Of a stretch of 42,108 nucleotides of DNA, positions 29,951-39,630 are shown one piece after another; positions within the stretch are counted from its first letter, which is position 1; each line of letters opens with the position of its first letter. This DNA is from Roseiflexus sp. (lineage in GTDB: Bacteria; Chloroflexota; Chloroflexia; Chloroflexales; Roseiflexaceae), in the NCBI GenBank assembly GCA_017743475.1, contig JAGHYV010000040.1, forward strand, positions 1-42,108, in the 5' to 3' direction. The notes beneath the pieces were generated by a model. The model saw only the letters and a program-made list of their open reading frames with translations, searched no databases and was not told where the DNA came from. The position numbers were made by a program, and so were the translations under genes.

Positions 29951-30243
29951 AACAGTTACTAGCATATCCACTCCACGCTAGCGCTACCGTTCCACGACTT
30001 CTAACGCGAGGACAATCCGGATCACCTCTGCGACACACCGGCAAGATGGTCTGCGTTTTGTCCTTCGACTGCGTTAGCCTGAATCTTTCCATCCGGTATC
30101 TCACTCGATGACCAAGTCACGTTCCGAAGAGCCTGTGCGTCACAAAATCCTTTGCTGAACGGCTTCCTGTACGAAAAAATGCTCCAAAGACTCAAAATAC
30201 ACTTTCGTAAATTATTTGTTGCAAAACCTCTACTTTGAGAGGA

Positions 30244-30271
30244 TTGACTCATTCTGCGTGGATCGTATATG
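30244..30271 (+). promoter_or_regulatory. Candidate promoter of the DUF4914 gene
   Basis: TTGACT (30244-30249), 16 bases, TATATG (30266-30271). It is 34 bases before the ATG. Confidence 0.35.
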
Positions 30272-30305
30272 CTTCCCCAGGAAATGCTCTGAGAGGAGGT
30301 ATCGA

Positions 30306-32174
30306 ATGGATTGGCAGAAGTATAACCCACCGGTTGATGCAGCTGACATTCTCTCGAAGTGTCCCAGCCTGGTCATAGCCAGCTCTATAGCTGAACTCGT
30401 TGATCTAGCATGTGGTGGCAGTGGCAGCGACAGCTTCGAGGTGGCGTTCGACGTTAAAGGTTTAGGCAGAGTTGTTGAGGCAACGGTAGCCCGCGTGCGC
30501 AATGGTGTCGCTGCTAACTACCCTGAACCATATATGCGTCGTCGTGACCCGGACTGCATGTTCATCGCCGACGACCTACCGACGAACAAGCCACGTTTCA
30601 AAGATCGATTCGGCTACGACTTTGCCGAGTTACGTCGAGAGACATTCGAGTGGCTGAAGACCCAGCCTTTGGCGATGTTCGGTTTCACCGCCGGGCAGCG
30701 AGGTATGGGACAGGATGCACTGGTGATTGCTCCGGCCAACACCGGTTTCTTCGCCCTCGGGTTGGCGTTGCTTCAGGGTATCACCGCCTATGAAGACATC
30801 CCCCCCAACTTCCATCCTACGGCAATCATCTACGTTGCGCCGCCGTTCCGTCACACGCACTTCGATGGCAAGCAGGTCGTTGTTCACAATCGTCGAGACG
30901 GTCTGCACGAAATGTTTTCCTACAATCTCTACCCCGGTCCAAGCGCCAAGAAGGGAGTCTACGGGGTCCTCATTAACCAGGGGGTCCGGGAGGGCTGGGT
31001 CACTGCCCACTGCTCCACAGTGCAGGTTGTCACGCCCTACGACAACGTGGTGACAATTATGCACGAGGGGGCAAGCGGTGGCGGCAAAAGCGAGATGCTG
31101 GAGCAGATACATCGAGAGCCGGATGGCCGCCTGCTGCTTGGAGTGAATATCGTGACTGGCGAGCATCGCTATCTCGAGATCCCGCGTGCGTGCAGATTGC
31201 GTCCAGTGACAGATGATATGGCGTTGTGCCATCCGTCGCTTCAGAACAATCAGCGCAAACTGCGGCTCACCGATGCCGAAGACGGCTGGTTTGTCCGCGT
31301 TAATCACATCACACGCTACGGTACCGACATCCACCTCGAGCGCCTGACTGCACAGCCTGAAGAGCCGTTACTCTTCCTAAATATTGATGCGGTCCCTAGA
31401 AGTCGCGCGCTCATCTGGGAGCATATTTACGATGCACCCGGTAAGCCCTGCCCAAACCCGCGCGTCATTCTCCCGCGCCGGATTGTTCCGGGCGTTGTTT
31501 TCGAGCCGGTGACGGTCGATATTCGCAGCTTTGGCGTTCGCACACCGCCATGCACCCGCGAGCGCCCAACCTATGGCATTATCGGGTTGTTCCACATCCT
31601 GCCGCCAGCGCTTGCCTGGCTGTGGCGTCTGGTCGCTCCGCGCGGTCACGATAATCCGAGCATCGTTGAAACCGAGGGTATGAGTAGCGAAGGCGTCGGC
31701 TCGTACTGGCCCTTCACAACCGGTCGTCGGGTCGATCAGGCCAACCTGCTGCTCAGGCAGTTTCAGGAAAACACGCAGATGCGCTACATTCTCTGCCCAA
31801 ACCAGCATGTCGGCGCATGGAAGGTCGGATTTATGCCGCAGTGGATCGCGCGTGAATACCTGGCACGGCGTGGAAACGCTCAGTTCTCTCCAGAGCAGAT
31901 TCAGCCTGCGCGCTGCCCGCTATTGGGATACGCACTCTTCCAGCTCTCGGTTGAAGGACGATCTATCGCCCGCTGGTTCCTCCAGGTCGACACCCAGCCA
32001 GAGGTTGGGCCGGAAGCTTACGATAAGGGGGCGGCGATCTTGTATGCCTTCTTCCGCAAATGTCTGGCAGACTTCCGTGATCCAGAGCTCGACCCGCTTG
32101 GACATCGGATCATCGAGTGCTGCCTTGATGGCGGTACGCTGCAGGATTATGAGGCGCTGATTCCGAGCAACTGA
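30306..32174 (+). CDS. DUF4914-family P-loop protein (PEPCK/HPr-kinase-like)
   Basis: A 622-residue protein of unknown function that I match to DUF4914 by its length and P-loop region. The core is MHEGASGGGKSEMLEQ (P-loop residues 255-262), like the PEP carboxykinase/HPr-kinase type of nucleotide-binding loop. Later blocks include FVRVNHITRYGTDIHLERL, NPRVILPRRI and EGVGSYWPFTTGRRVDQANL, and there is no membrane segment. The start is ATG 30306 after GAGGAGGT. It likely uses ATP or GTP to phosphorylate or decarboxylate a small molecule or protein, but the substrate is unknown. It stands alone with a terminator-like hairpin after it. Confidence 0.75.
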   Translation: MDWQKYNPPVDAADILSKCPSLVIASSIAELVDLACGGSGSDSFEVAFDVKGLGRVVEATVARVRNGVAANYPEPYMRRRDPDCMFIADDLPTNKPRFKDRFGYDFAELRRETFEWLKTQPLAMFGFTAGQRGMGQDALVIAPANTGFFALGLALLQGITAYEDIPPNFHPTAIIYVAPPFRHTHFDGKQVVVHNRRDGLHEMFSYNLYPGPSAKKGVYGVLINQGVREGWVTAHCSTVQVVTPYDNVVTIMHEGASGGGKSEMLEQIHREPDGRLLLGVNIVTGEHRYLEIPRACRLRPVTDDMALCHPSLQNNQRKLRLTDAEDGWFVRVNHITRYGTDIHLERLTAQPEEPLLFLNIDAVPRSRALIWEHIYDAPGKPCPNPRVILPRRIVPGVVFEPVTVDIRSFGVRTPPCTRERPTYGIIGLFHILPPALAWLWRLVAPRGHDNPSIVETEGMSSEGVGSYWPFTTGRRVDQANLLLRQFQENTQMRYILCPNQHVGAWKVGFMPQWIAREYLARRGNAQFSPEQIQPARCPLLGYALFQLSVEGRSIARWFLQVDTQPEVGPEAYDKGAAILYAFFRKCLADFRDPELDPLGHRIIECCLDGGTLQDYEALIPSN

Positions 32175-32222
32175 AGAACTTCGGATCGTTCAGAGAGGTG
32201 TCGTTGACCCTCTTCCCCCCTG

Positions 32223-32251
32223 CCCCCTTCTCCCACATGGGGAGAAGGGGG
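32223..32251 (+). terminator. G/C-rich hairpin after the DUF4914 gene
   Basis: CCCCCTTCTCCC (32223-32234) pairs with GGGAGAAGGGGG (32240-32251) around a five-base ACATG loop. This motif also occurs in the R4 repeats at 8.8 and 9.05 kb, so it is part of an interspersed repeat that may double as a terminator. Confidence 0.5.
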
Positions 32252-32299
32252 AGTGTGGGGCGTTCTGATGCTCTACTGCCCCTCTTCCCCCTGCCCCCT

Positions 32300-34888
32300 T
32301 GCATGCAACCATCGTATCCAGCGCTTCAGTGCTACTGGAACCTTCCTCGGCACGTGGGGGTCGTATGGCAGTGGCAACGGGCAGTTTGAGCGCCCTAAAG
32401 GCTTGGCCATCGCACCCGATGGCACGGTCTACGCGGCGGATACCAACAACGCCCGCATCCAGCGCTTCAGCGCCAACGGCGCGTTCCTTAGCGCGTGGGG
32501 AAGTGGGGTAGCGGCAACGGGCAGTTCTCTAATCCTAAAAGCGTGGCAATCGCGCCTGATAGCACGGTTTACGTGACGGATGAAGGCAACTACCGCATCT
32601 AGCACTTCAGCGCCGATGGAACCTTCCTCGGCGCGTGGGGAGCGTGGGGCACAGGCAATGGACGGTTCAAATGGCCTCGCGGCATGGCAGTGGCTCCTGA
32701 CGGGACTGTTTATGTAGCAGATACTCTTAACAATCGCATTCCAGGTATTCGGCACGCAGTACCCTGCCTCCTGGCGCGGCGAATTCTTCGCCAACGACCT
32801 CGCCGGACCGGTGTTGCACGTTGAAAACGTCTCCGAGCTGTTCCTCAACCGCTCATGGACCGGGCAACCGGCGGCGAACATCCCTGCCGACCATTTCACC
32901 AGTCGCTGGCTGCGCTACGTCAACTTCCCGACCGCCGGACGCTACCGCTTCACCATCAGCGCCGATGACGGCGTCCGTTTTTGGGTCGATGACTGGCTAG
33001 TGGTCGAGTCCTGGCAGCCGCAGTCGCTCACCCGCGAGGTCACCGTTGAACTGTCGGCAGGCTACCATCGGCTGCTGCTCGAACATTGGGATCAGCAGGG
33101 CGTGGCGACGCTCGCACTGGAGTGGACGCGCATAGACAACACGACGCCCTCGCCGACGGCGACTCCATCGCCGACGGTGACTCCATCGCCGACCGCGACA
33201 CCCACGCCCACCCCAATGGCCACGCCATCGCCGACAGCGACGGCCATCCCGACGGTGACTCCATCGCCGACGGCGACGCCCATGCGGACGCCCACGCCTA
33301 CCCCACCGGACAACTCCGTCATTGGGGTGGATCTAACAATCGGCCTGTATCGCAATCCAAACAGCGAGGAGCGGGCGGTTTACGAGGAGATGATTCGCTA
33401 CTTCGCCGATGCCCTCTTCGAGATGTCGAACGGCGCGCACAAGTTGCGCACGGTGCGTATCTATCCGAACACGACATCCAAAAAAGACATTATCTGGGTA
33501 GACCAGTGCTGGCCGCAAGCCACAATCTCAGGGTACGGGAGGGCACAGTACGGTGTGCTCATTCTGATGTGCGACAGCTTTGGGAGCTACAATTACTTGC
33601 AGAACCGGCGCGCCTGGGAGAATGCGGGTATACCCTTGCTCACGAAATGGGACACTACTTCTACTCGCTGTACGATGAATACCGAACGGATGACCCATGC
33701 GACCCAACAAGACCGAGTAGACCGTGCCGGGACGACACACCGGTCTCGCCATCGGTGATGCATAGTCAGTGGAATGCTGTGAGAGGTCAATACAGCTGGC
33801 TGAACTTCTCATCGGCGGCGAATTACAGCACGAGAACGGCTCAGTATCGTATGTATCGGGCAAGCGGTTGGGAGACGCTGATCCGGCGACCGGAGCACGA
33901 CCCGCGCGATGGCATCCTGGCAAATGCCCCCCGCCGGTTGTACCACCCCGAACTGCAGAATGTCGCTCTGGCGTCTGACCAACTCCCTCGCATCGACCTC
34001 ATCACCGGGCATCAGGCACGCAGTATGCTCCGGATTATCTGGGAACAGCCAGCCAGCGCGGCACTGGCCAGCGCCGAGATTACGGCTAGCCCGTTCGCGT
34101 TGGAAGGCAACAATGTCACTTACCCGCAACCGGTGCGGCTGATTGCTACGTTGCAACGCAGGCTGCCGATTGCCAACGCAGTCGTGCAGGGGGAGGTCAC
34201 GCTGCCGAACGGTCAGACCCAACTGCTGACCTTCCGCGATGATGGGGTTACCCCCGATGCACTTGCCGACGATGGACGGTACTCGGCGCTCTTCATCCCA
34301 ACCCAGGACGGCGCGCATCAATATCGGGTCACGTTCACCAACCCCAATCAATCGGCAGCTGAGGTCTACAATGGCCTGGAACTCGCGCCGCCGCCGGGGT
34401 ACCAACCAGACGATTCGCTGCTGTCGCCCGTACCGGTCGGCGAGAACTTCACTGTCAGCGCCCAGGCGACAATAGTGGTCAACGGGGTGAGGAGTGATGA
34501 CCACGGGAACGATCCCGGTACGGCTAGTCTGCTGAATACCGATAACCTTGACCGATGGGGGCATATCGAGCAGCCCGGCGACCGTGACCTGTTCCGCATC
34601 ACCCTACCGCAGGATATGACCATCGTGGTGCGCGTGACCAATCGGGCAGCGGGGATGCAACCGCGCCTGCGCCTGCTCGCCACGGATGGGACGACGCCGG
34701 TATCGGCATTGTCGCTGGCGGAGAACTACCCGGCGCTGGTGTACACGGCACGAGCAGGCAGCGTGATCTATGCTGAGGTAAGCCACGTCGACCCCATAGC
34801 GGGGAGGAGCTTGTACCGGATCAGTGCGGGTTTGGCAATCGCAAGTGATGGGCTGAACCAGGTGTATATACCCTTGGTGAAGCGGTGA
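32300..34888 (+). pseudogene. Broken secreted metallopeptidase: NHL repeats, PA14, P/T-rich linker, HExxH domain, C-terminal YIPLVKR tag
   Basis: One gene can be rebuilt across several frames. NHL beta-propeller repeats come first (FLGTWGSYGSGNGQFERPKG and APDGTVYAADTNNARIQRFS). A PA14 domain follows (WRGEFFANDLAGPVLHVENV to GYHRLLLEHWDQQGVATLAL), then a (TPSP)n linker, then a peptidase domain with HEMGHYFYSLYDE (zinc site). The C-terminal part has a beta domain, DRDLFRITLPQDMTI, and ends QVYIPLVKR. Damage: a TAG at 32600-32602 in place of a Gln codon, frame changes at about 32505, 32740 and 33627, and no N-terminus or signal peptide because a repeat lies upstream. The 33627 change is a single missing G in GGG (33626-33628): restoring one G joins ENAG to YTLAHE. 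The 3' half, from the HEMGH region on, is intact in one frame. Confidence 0.8.
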
Positions 34889-34970: not shown

Positions 34971-35070
34971 GATCCGCTCTAGAACCGGGCAGGTTCTTGC
35001 CGCCCCCGGCGACTGACCCGCAAGAGCAGGACACCCTCGCCTCTCAAGGTTAGAGTTCCTGTCTCGCTCG

Positions 35071-35110
35071 CGCAGGCAGGCTTTGTCCTGGATAGCCGAG
35101 GGGTTTCCTC
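35071..35110 (+). repeat. Interspersed repeat, R1 family copy b
   Basis: CGCAGGCAGGCTTTGTCCTG, then GATAGCCGAGGGGTTT. It repeats 60 bases on at 35131. Confidence 0.5.
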
Positions 35111-35130
35111 CGACGGTTCACACCAGCCTG

Positions 35131-35172
35131 CGCAGACGAGCTTTGCCCCGCATAGCCGAGGACTTTAGCTCC
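35131..35172 (+). repeat. Interspersed repeat, R1 family copy c
   Basis: CGCAGACGAGCTTTGCCCCG, then CATAGCCGAGGACTTTAGCT. The same core appears in 35071-35110 and on the minus strand of 42050-42091. Confidence 0.5.
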
Positions 35173-35270
35173 ATGGGCCAGTTCGGGATACCGGATTATA
35201 GCAGTTTTCACAAAGGTTGAGCCTCATGGACGAGGTTGAACATTCCCAGAGTCGCGTACCCTCGAGGCAA

Positions 35271-35286
35271 CCGAAATGAATTTCGG
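35271..35286. repeat. Short palindrome CCGAAATGAATTTCGG
   Basis: Seven-base arms around GA. It is about 50 bases beyond the uvrC stop and may contribute to ending that transcript, but there is no clear U tract. Confidence 0.25.
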
Positions 35287-35336
35287 TCTACTTCAATACG
35301 CGTCGGAGCAGGGCGGCACGGGCGTAGGAGGCAACT

Positions 35337-39143: not shown

Positions 39144-39216
39144 ACAGCGCAGGTCAAGGAATAGTCGCTCTCGACAGATGACGGTCGGTGCAGGGGTGGC
39201 GTTATCCTGCGACCGT

Positions 39217-39630
39217 ATGCGCAATCTGTGTGCCCGACTCGATAGTTAGGCGAAGCGCACCGAGACGCCGCCTGACGGCGCACAGATTGCAGTGCAGGAG
39301 AAGGCATTATGCGAGAAGGTGCCGGAGGTCGAGAAATATCTCCTTGTTCCCGATCTGCGACCTGGTTAGGCGAATAATCTCAACCATGGGGTGCGTTTGC
39401 CGGAGAAGTTGACGAACGTTGCTGAAGTGGTCCAACCCGGCGATTACCGTCCGACCGACGCGGCAGAAGCGATATTTCAGGACTTCGCAGCGTGCATTGC
39501 TGTCTAGACTGCGTATTTTGAGGCTTTGATCGAAAGCGATTTGCTAGCGTCGAACACTGCGATTGCCGGTGCTGACTTCGGGGCGATTATGCTACCGGTA
39601 ACATCAGCGAAATATCTGGACAGACAGTGA
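39217..39630 (+). pseudogene. C-terminal remnant of a secreted VPS10/BNR-type protein, with three in-frame TAG codons
   Basis: A frame of 137 codons with no frameshift, but TAG at 39247-39249, 39367-39369 and 39505-39507, ending in TGA at 39628. Between stops the protein is well formed: TPPDGAQIAVQEKAL, PEVEKYLLVPDLRPG, NLNHGVRLPEKLTNVAEVV and YRPTDAAEAIFQDFAA. This looks like the helical C-terminal tail seen after BNR/VPS10-type beta-propellers (NxxIRLNNKLAxLAGVV-xPT-...). No propeller or signal peptide lies upstream, as the ilvD gene ends at 39143. I read this as a decayed fragment; recoding of TAG is less likely. Confidence 0.45.

Follow-up and report, generated by a model that had tools for sequence, protein, structure and literature searches.

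Within the window, the 42,108-nucleotide stretch of DNA that was analysed, we found what is, on the assembly as given, very probably a pseudogene of an NHL-PA14-metallopeptidase gene. The window belongs to a draft genome (G000) that we take to be a Roseiflexus, presumably from a hot spring. The assembly as given holds both homology to intact genes and lesions that disable the reading frame, so that the preliminary description of a broken gene with several lesions, made from the letters alone, was borne out by translation and by alignment of homologues. The remnant lies on the forward strand. A REP-like palindromic repeat (32204 to 32301, one copy and a partial second, without assigned strand) abuts its truncated 5' end and is followed by NHL blade fragments in one reading frame (32305 to 32502; Pfam NHL E 1.5e-9) and then in a second (32503 to 32740), which contains a TAG codon and is bounded by a frame change at either end. 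The PA14 domain returns to the first frame (32741 to 33155, or 32787 to 33155 in the whole-genome scan; Pfam PA14 E 1.9e-15) and leads into a Pro/Thr/Ser-rich linker of 18-base repeats (33142 to 33317). The peptidase domain begins in the frame of PA14 (33318 to 33628, some 100 residues), up to a third frame change, and its remainder continues together with the C-terminal domains from 33632 to 34885, with the stop codon at 34886 to 34888. This last piece includes the peptidase motif HEMGHYFYSLYDEY (33641-33682) and a choice-of-anchor X domain (34226-34333; NCBIfam NF041940, 42.5 bits against a cut-off of 25).

The domain assignments are well above the thresholds of their profiles, at 57.4 bits against a gathering cut-off of 24 for PA14 (PF07691) and 37.9 against 20 for the NHL repeat (PF01436). 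Against the homologous protein of a same-genus genome of 5,801,598 bases (G001, which we take to be Roseiflexus sp. RS-1), tblastn gave two pieces, one of 302 aligned positions at 76% identity and one of 466 at 77%, the second opening with roughly 30 out-of-frame positions; since identity reaches these values, the homology cannot be put down to chance. In an alignment with four homologues, the remnant keeps 43 of the 46 covered invariant columns in the N-terminal part of the peptidase and 161 of 169 in the C-terminal piece.

Three-frame translation and nucleotide alignment to the G001 copy, to that of a genome of the same order and another family (G014), and to a second copy in G000 itself (contig C56) located three frame changes, each of a single base, near 32503, 32740 and 33629; the TAG, seen in the three-frame translation, occupies 32600 to 32602. 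These positions are essentially those proposed beforehand, namely a TAG at 32600 and frame changes near 32505 and 32740. The spacing of the NHL repeats in the window, 141 and then 140 bases, lends independent, internal support to the first frame change, and the remaining differences in length from the three other copies either keep the frame, being multiples of three, or compensate one another within a short distance. The suggestion that restoring a single G at 33626-33628 would join ENAG to YTLAHE also agrees with the homologues, which read ENAG-YTIAHE in G001 and EEAG-YTIAHE in G014 at that junction. Past this break, the first in-frame ATG encodes the M of HEMGH, at 33647. The longest run at any break is GGGG, as judged by eye. 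Altogether, the remnant carries four point-like lesions in 1.1 kb and a 5' truncation.

The extent first assigned to the gene, 32300 to 34888, does encode the domains named, but its start is not a true gene start, since the signal peptide and the earlier blades are missing. The best colinear alignment to the G001 homologue opens at about residue 468, leaving some 445 to 467 N-terminal residues unaccounted for, depending on which of two possible G001 starts is counted; the exact register is uncertain because the blades are repeats. Judged against the intact homologues, the absent part comprises a probable signal peptide and most of the NHL blades. Homology to the C56, G001 and G014 copies opens at 32302 to 32316, directly past the REP-like repeat, and this adjacency suggests that the 5' loss may be associated with the repeat. 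The repeat gave at least 58 match rows in G000 (40 of 93 candidates scored), two of them at its own locus, and many matches in G001. Intergenic repeats flank the remnant on both sides (32204-32301 and 35049-35291), and related ones occur around the G001 and C56 copies.

At the other end, the 3' half had been regarded as intact. However, the break at 33629 cuts the catalytic domain in two, and the 600-aa open reading frame (ORF) at 33086-34888 consequently represents no intact enzyme: over its first 180 or so codons, the linker and the N-terminal portion of the peptidase are read in the wrong frame. An automatic gene call at this locus, whether of a 600-aa protein or of a working peptidase, would mislead annotation.

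The homologues in G001 and G014 are single open frames of 1315 and 1334 aa, respectively, each with an N-terminal hydrophobic stretch (by eye). The G001 protein resembles the remnant in its NHL blades, PA14 domain, Pro/Thr linker, HEMGH peptidase and C-terminal domains, and differs from it in being a single frame, in its N-terminal hydrophobic segment and in its chromosomal place; the G014 protein has the same architecture as well, but is intact and belongs to a host of another family. The G001 gene lies between genes that we read as glutamate synthase and homoserine dehydrogenase, from their sequences. In G000, these flanking genes sit about 1.7 kb apart on contig C127, and the gene is absent from that slot; matches to it in G000 beyond the shared linker-type repeat were found only on C15, which holds the remnant, and on C56. 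Conversely, there is no copy beside uvrC in G001, so the remnant and the G001 copy are not syntenic. The three downstream neighbours of the remnant are intact in comparison with G001 at the protein level (uvrC 97%, a 559-aa ORF 98% and a 346-aa ORF 94%), and neighbouring DNA is 89 to 94% identical to G001 in long matches, compared with 78% for this gene. The upstream neighbour (30216-32174, forward strand) is a full-length DUF4914 protein (PF16260, 1056 bits).

As a control for sequencing error, we took 144 ORFs of 150 codons or longer from five stretches of G001 and searched them in four stretches of G000; an ORF counted as intact at 80% identity or more and 85% coverage or more, with no inner stop and no second frame. 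Of these, 63 had no match, 49 were intact (21,161 codons) and 32 failed the rule; third-position counts marked 2 of the intact ORFs as probably read in the wrong frame, and the other 47 comprise 20,738 codons. The frame was unbroken relative to G001 in all 43 of the 47 that were at least 90% identical (18,181 codons). Among the 32 are the studied gene, ORFs truncated where a stretch ends, ORFs whose starts are over-extended and ORFs that probably belong to the opposite strand (third-position share 0.11-0.20). Among ORFs at 90% identity or above, none showed a one-base break within the gene body; the two irregular cases were a 374-aa ORF (90%), a remnant with an internal deletion, and a 507-aa ORF (95%) with a stop at position 41, which is provisionally taken for an over-extended start. 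At lower identity, a 352-aa ORF (72%) has one stop, a 453-aa ORF (82%) carries two, and matches in two frames were given by a 183-aa ORF (transposase-like by eye, 82%), a 267-aa ORF (86%) and a 152-aa ORF (82%) located where a stretch ends. Since several control ORFs look broken, whether decayed or misread, breaks in this genome are not unique to the NHL-PA14-peptidase family. Two places stood out as candidates for decay: (i) the G000 counterpart (C56, about 233.7-234.7 kb) of the 352-aa G001 ORF just named, which is peptidase-like by eye and whose stop is in frame, and (ii) a possible remnant at 39196-39606 of the window (forward strand), matching the last 137 or so residues of a 1062-aa G001 ORF (L024:7764-10952) at 73% with three stops, whose coding frame is unsure because of a third-position share of 0.45.

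The breaks could be errors of sequencing or assembly in a gene that is intact in the cell, an account that we consider unlikely. It would suit a draft of 206 contigs, in which repetitive NHL blades could be misassembled, as well as the constrained look of the coding frames and the presence of broken ORFs in the control stretches. It would, however, have to cover four separate lesions and the 5' loss, one of the lesions (33629) lying outside the repeats; collapse is itself unlikely, because the C15 and C56 copies are just 78% alike over the part they share. The homopolymer error that had been offered for one site fares little better, given that no run exceeds GGGG, that the lesions are several and accompanied by truncation, and that the frame is unbroken in the 43 controls with 90% identity or higher. 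Expression of the C-terminal part as a shorter protein, also raised in the preliminary description, would be in keeping with the long open frame, free of stops for 418 codons, with its low omega and with the preserved HExxH...DEY motif. Such a product would lack both a signal peptide and the N-terminal portion of the catalytic domain, which is encoded upstream in a different frame, and its earliest in-frame ATG falls inside HEMGH; together these points make a stand-alone protein, and in particular an enzyme, extremely unlikely. A promoter scan of 32150-33700 returned none, against 0.6 expected by chance, and says little.

Programmed recoding, by slippage or frameshifting, might in principle yield the full protein, and transcript slippage at a T5C5 run has been reported for an IS630 transposase of Roseiflexus (PMC5009743). 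At the breaks of the remnant, by contrast, we saw by eye no T5C5 or run of like length and, at 33629, no slippery heptamer; recoding would have to overcome all three frame changes together with the stop codon and the lack of a start, and the G001 and G014 genes read straight through, so that the chance of it is close to nil. A pseudogene thus remains the preferred reading, most likely the outcome of ordinary gene loss in a patchily distributed, modular family of secreted peptidases. The intact homologue is most likely an exported zinc peptidase, with NHL and PA14 domains that would tether it to glycans or proteins, either on the surface or outside the cell. We propose that an ancestor possessed a gene for a large, secreted NHL-PA14-linker-metallopeptidase, one of a family that is modular and spreads horizontally. 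The gene would have lost its 5' end, and with it the signal peptide and the bulk of the NHL blades, apparently in or beside the REP-like repeat; what is left has three frame changes of one base each and a nonsense codon, and would not be expected to give a functional peptidase. In this scheme, the lesions, the truncation, the existence of intact homologues and the absence of synteny are observed, and we infer the order of events, the involvement of the repeat, the loss of function and the role of the intact enzyme.

The second NHL-PA14 gene of G000 (L022:3311-5772, minus strand; contig C56, about 244.3-246.8 kb) has a signal-like N-terminus. It shares with the remnant the NHL blades, the PA14 domain and the start of the linker, at 78% nucleotide identity, and differs in having kept its 5' end, in carrying a clostripain-like tail in place of the metallopeptidase (TIGR02806 E 1.3e-20, below the cut-off of that family) and in its lesions, namely a TAG that precedes PA14 and a frame change inside that domain. 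These breaks lie at different places from those of the window and are independent of them. G000 has three further PA14 genes in the whole-genome scan, which are open frames of 920, 646 and 1132 aa. The clostripain-like tail implies that the NHL-PA14 stalk combines with different peptidases. One might go further and regard the stalk as a shared chassis whose enzyme tails are swapped by recombination, the two broken copies being no plain dead genes but a silent reservoir of tails, which we think very unlikely. That two NHL-PA14-peptidase genes of a single genome were broken independently, and that a copy from a host of another family stands nearer to G001 than the remnant does, makes a small, clear case of the gain and loss of an accessory extracellular enzyme.

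The peptidase region is 87% identical between G001 and G014 over 491 residues, and 83% (query residues 67-490) and 79% (residues 1-72) identical between G001 and G000, whereas UvrC shows the opposite order (97% between G001 and G000, 66% between G001 and G014), a reversal that points to horizontal transfer between families. This comparison of identities indicates a probable horizontal spread between families, followed by loss. Matches at E 1e-8 or better occur in 15 of 158 genomes of the class, G000 included, and a contig search for relatives returned one, an Oscillochloris metagenome-assembled contig (L028). N-terminal architectures varied among the six relatives whose longest frames were read, with the exception of L036, whose frame is truncated by the end of its contig; the peptidase had no match in 72,556 plasmid records. 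On the G000 branch, omega was estimated from three sequences at 0.17 (bootstrap 0.11-0.27) for the PA14 and N-terminal peptidase piece and at 0.21 (0.13-0.32) for the C-terminal piece, values within the range of the intact branches (0.10-0.30, with intervals up to 0.62 and 1.03), and the 3' part runs for 418 codons without a stop. Because coding constraint persists, inactivation looks recent; most of the divergence probably arose under constraint and so predates it, and omega alone does not prove decay. Constraint without visible relaxation fits recent inactivation, and would also fit a frame still in use, or read errors.

With regard to known peptidases, no Pfam family matched the peptidase above its cut-off, and a profile search of solved structures gave no sequence match for it. 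Among the zincins, Peptidase_M64 (PF09471) matched weakly in all four aligned members (best E 0.0069; 16 bits for the G001 member against a cut-off of 26) and CLCA_N (PF08434) in two of the four (best E 0.0045), the G001 member not among them. An AlphaFold2 model of the L028 domain was too poor for use (mean pLDDT 34.1). L028 has the same kind of peptidase domain, followed by a von Willebrand A-like stretch (DRSAS motif, by eye), as in animal CLCA proteins. The available part of one published account (PMC3650047) gives the M64 motif as HExxHxxxxLxDEY and the CLCA consensus as HExxHxxxGxxDEY, describes M64 as the known family nearest to CLCA, with three conserved cysteines downstream as a second zinc site, and argues that CLCA genes passed from animals to bacteria. 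Roseiflexus sp. RS-1, Chloroflexus aurantiacus and Herpetosiphon are among the CLCA holders listed there, and the Chloroflexi proteins are said to have species-specific, unusual architectures, in an account of CLCA proteins that, in this part, names neither NHL nor PA14 (PMC3650047). The sequence HEMGHYFYSLYDEY fits the M64 motif, and differs from the CLCA consensus in that the window and G001 have S where the consensus has G, a residue that L028 carries; this M64/CLCA-like motif appears to be of a type that has been described before in Roseiflexus sp. RS-1 (PMC3650047).
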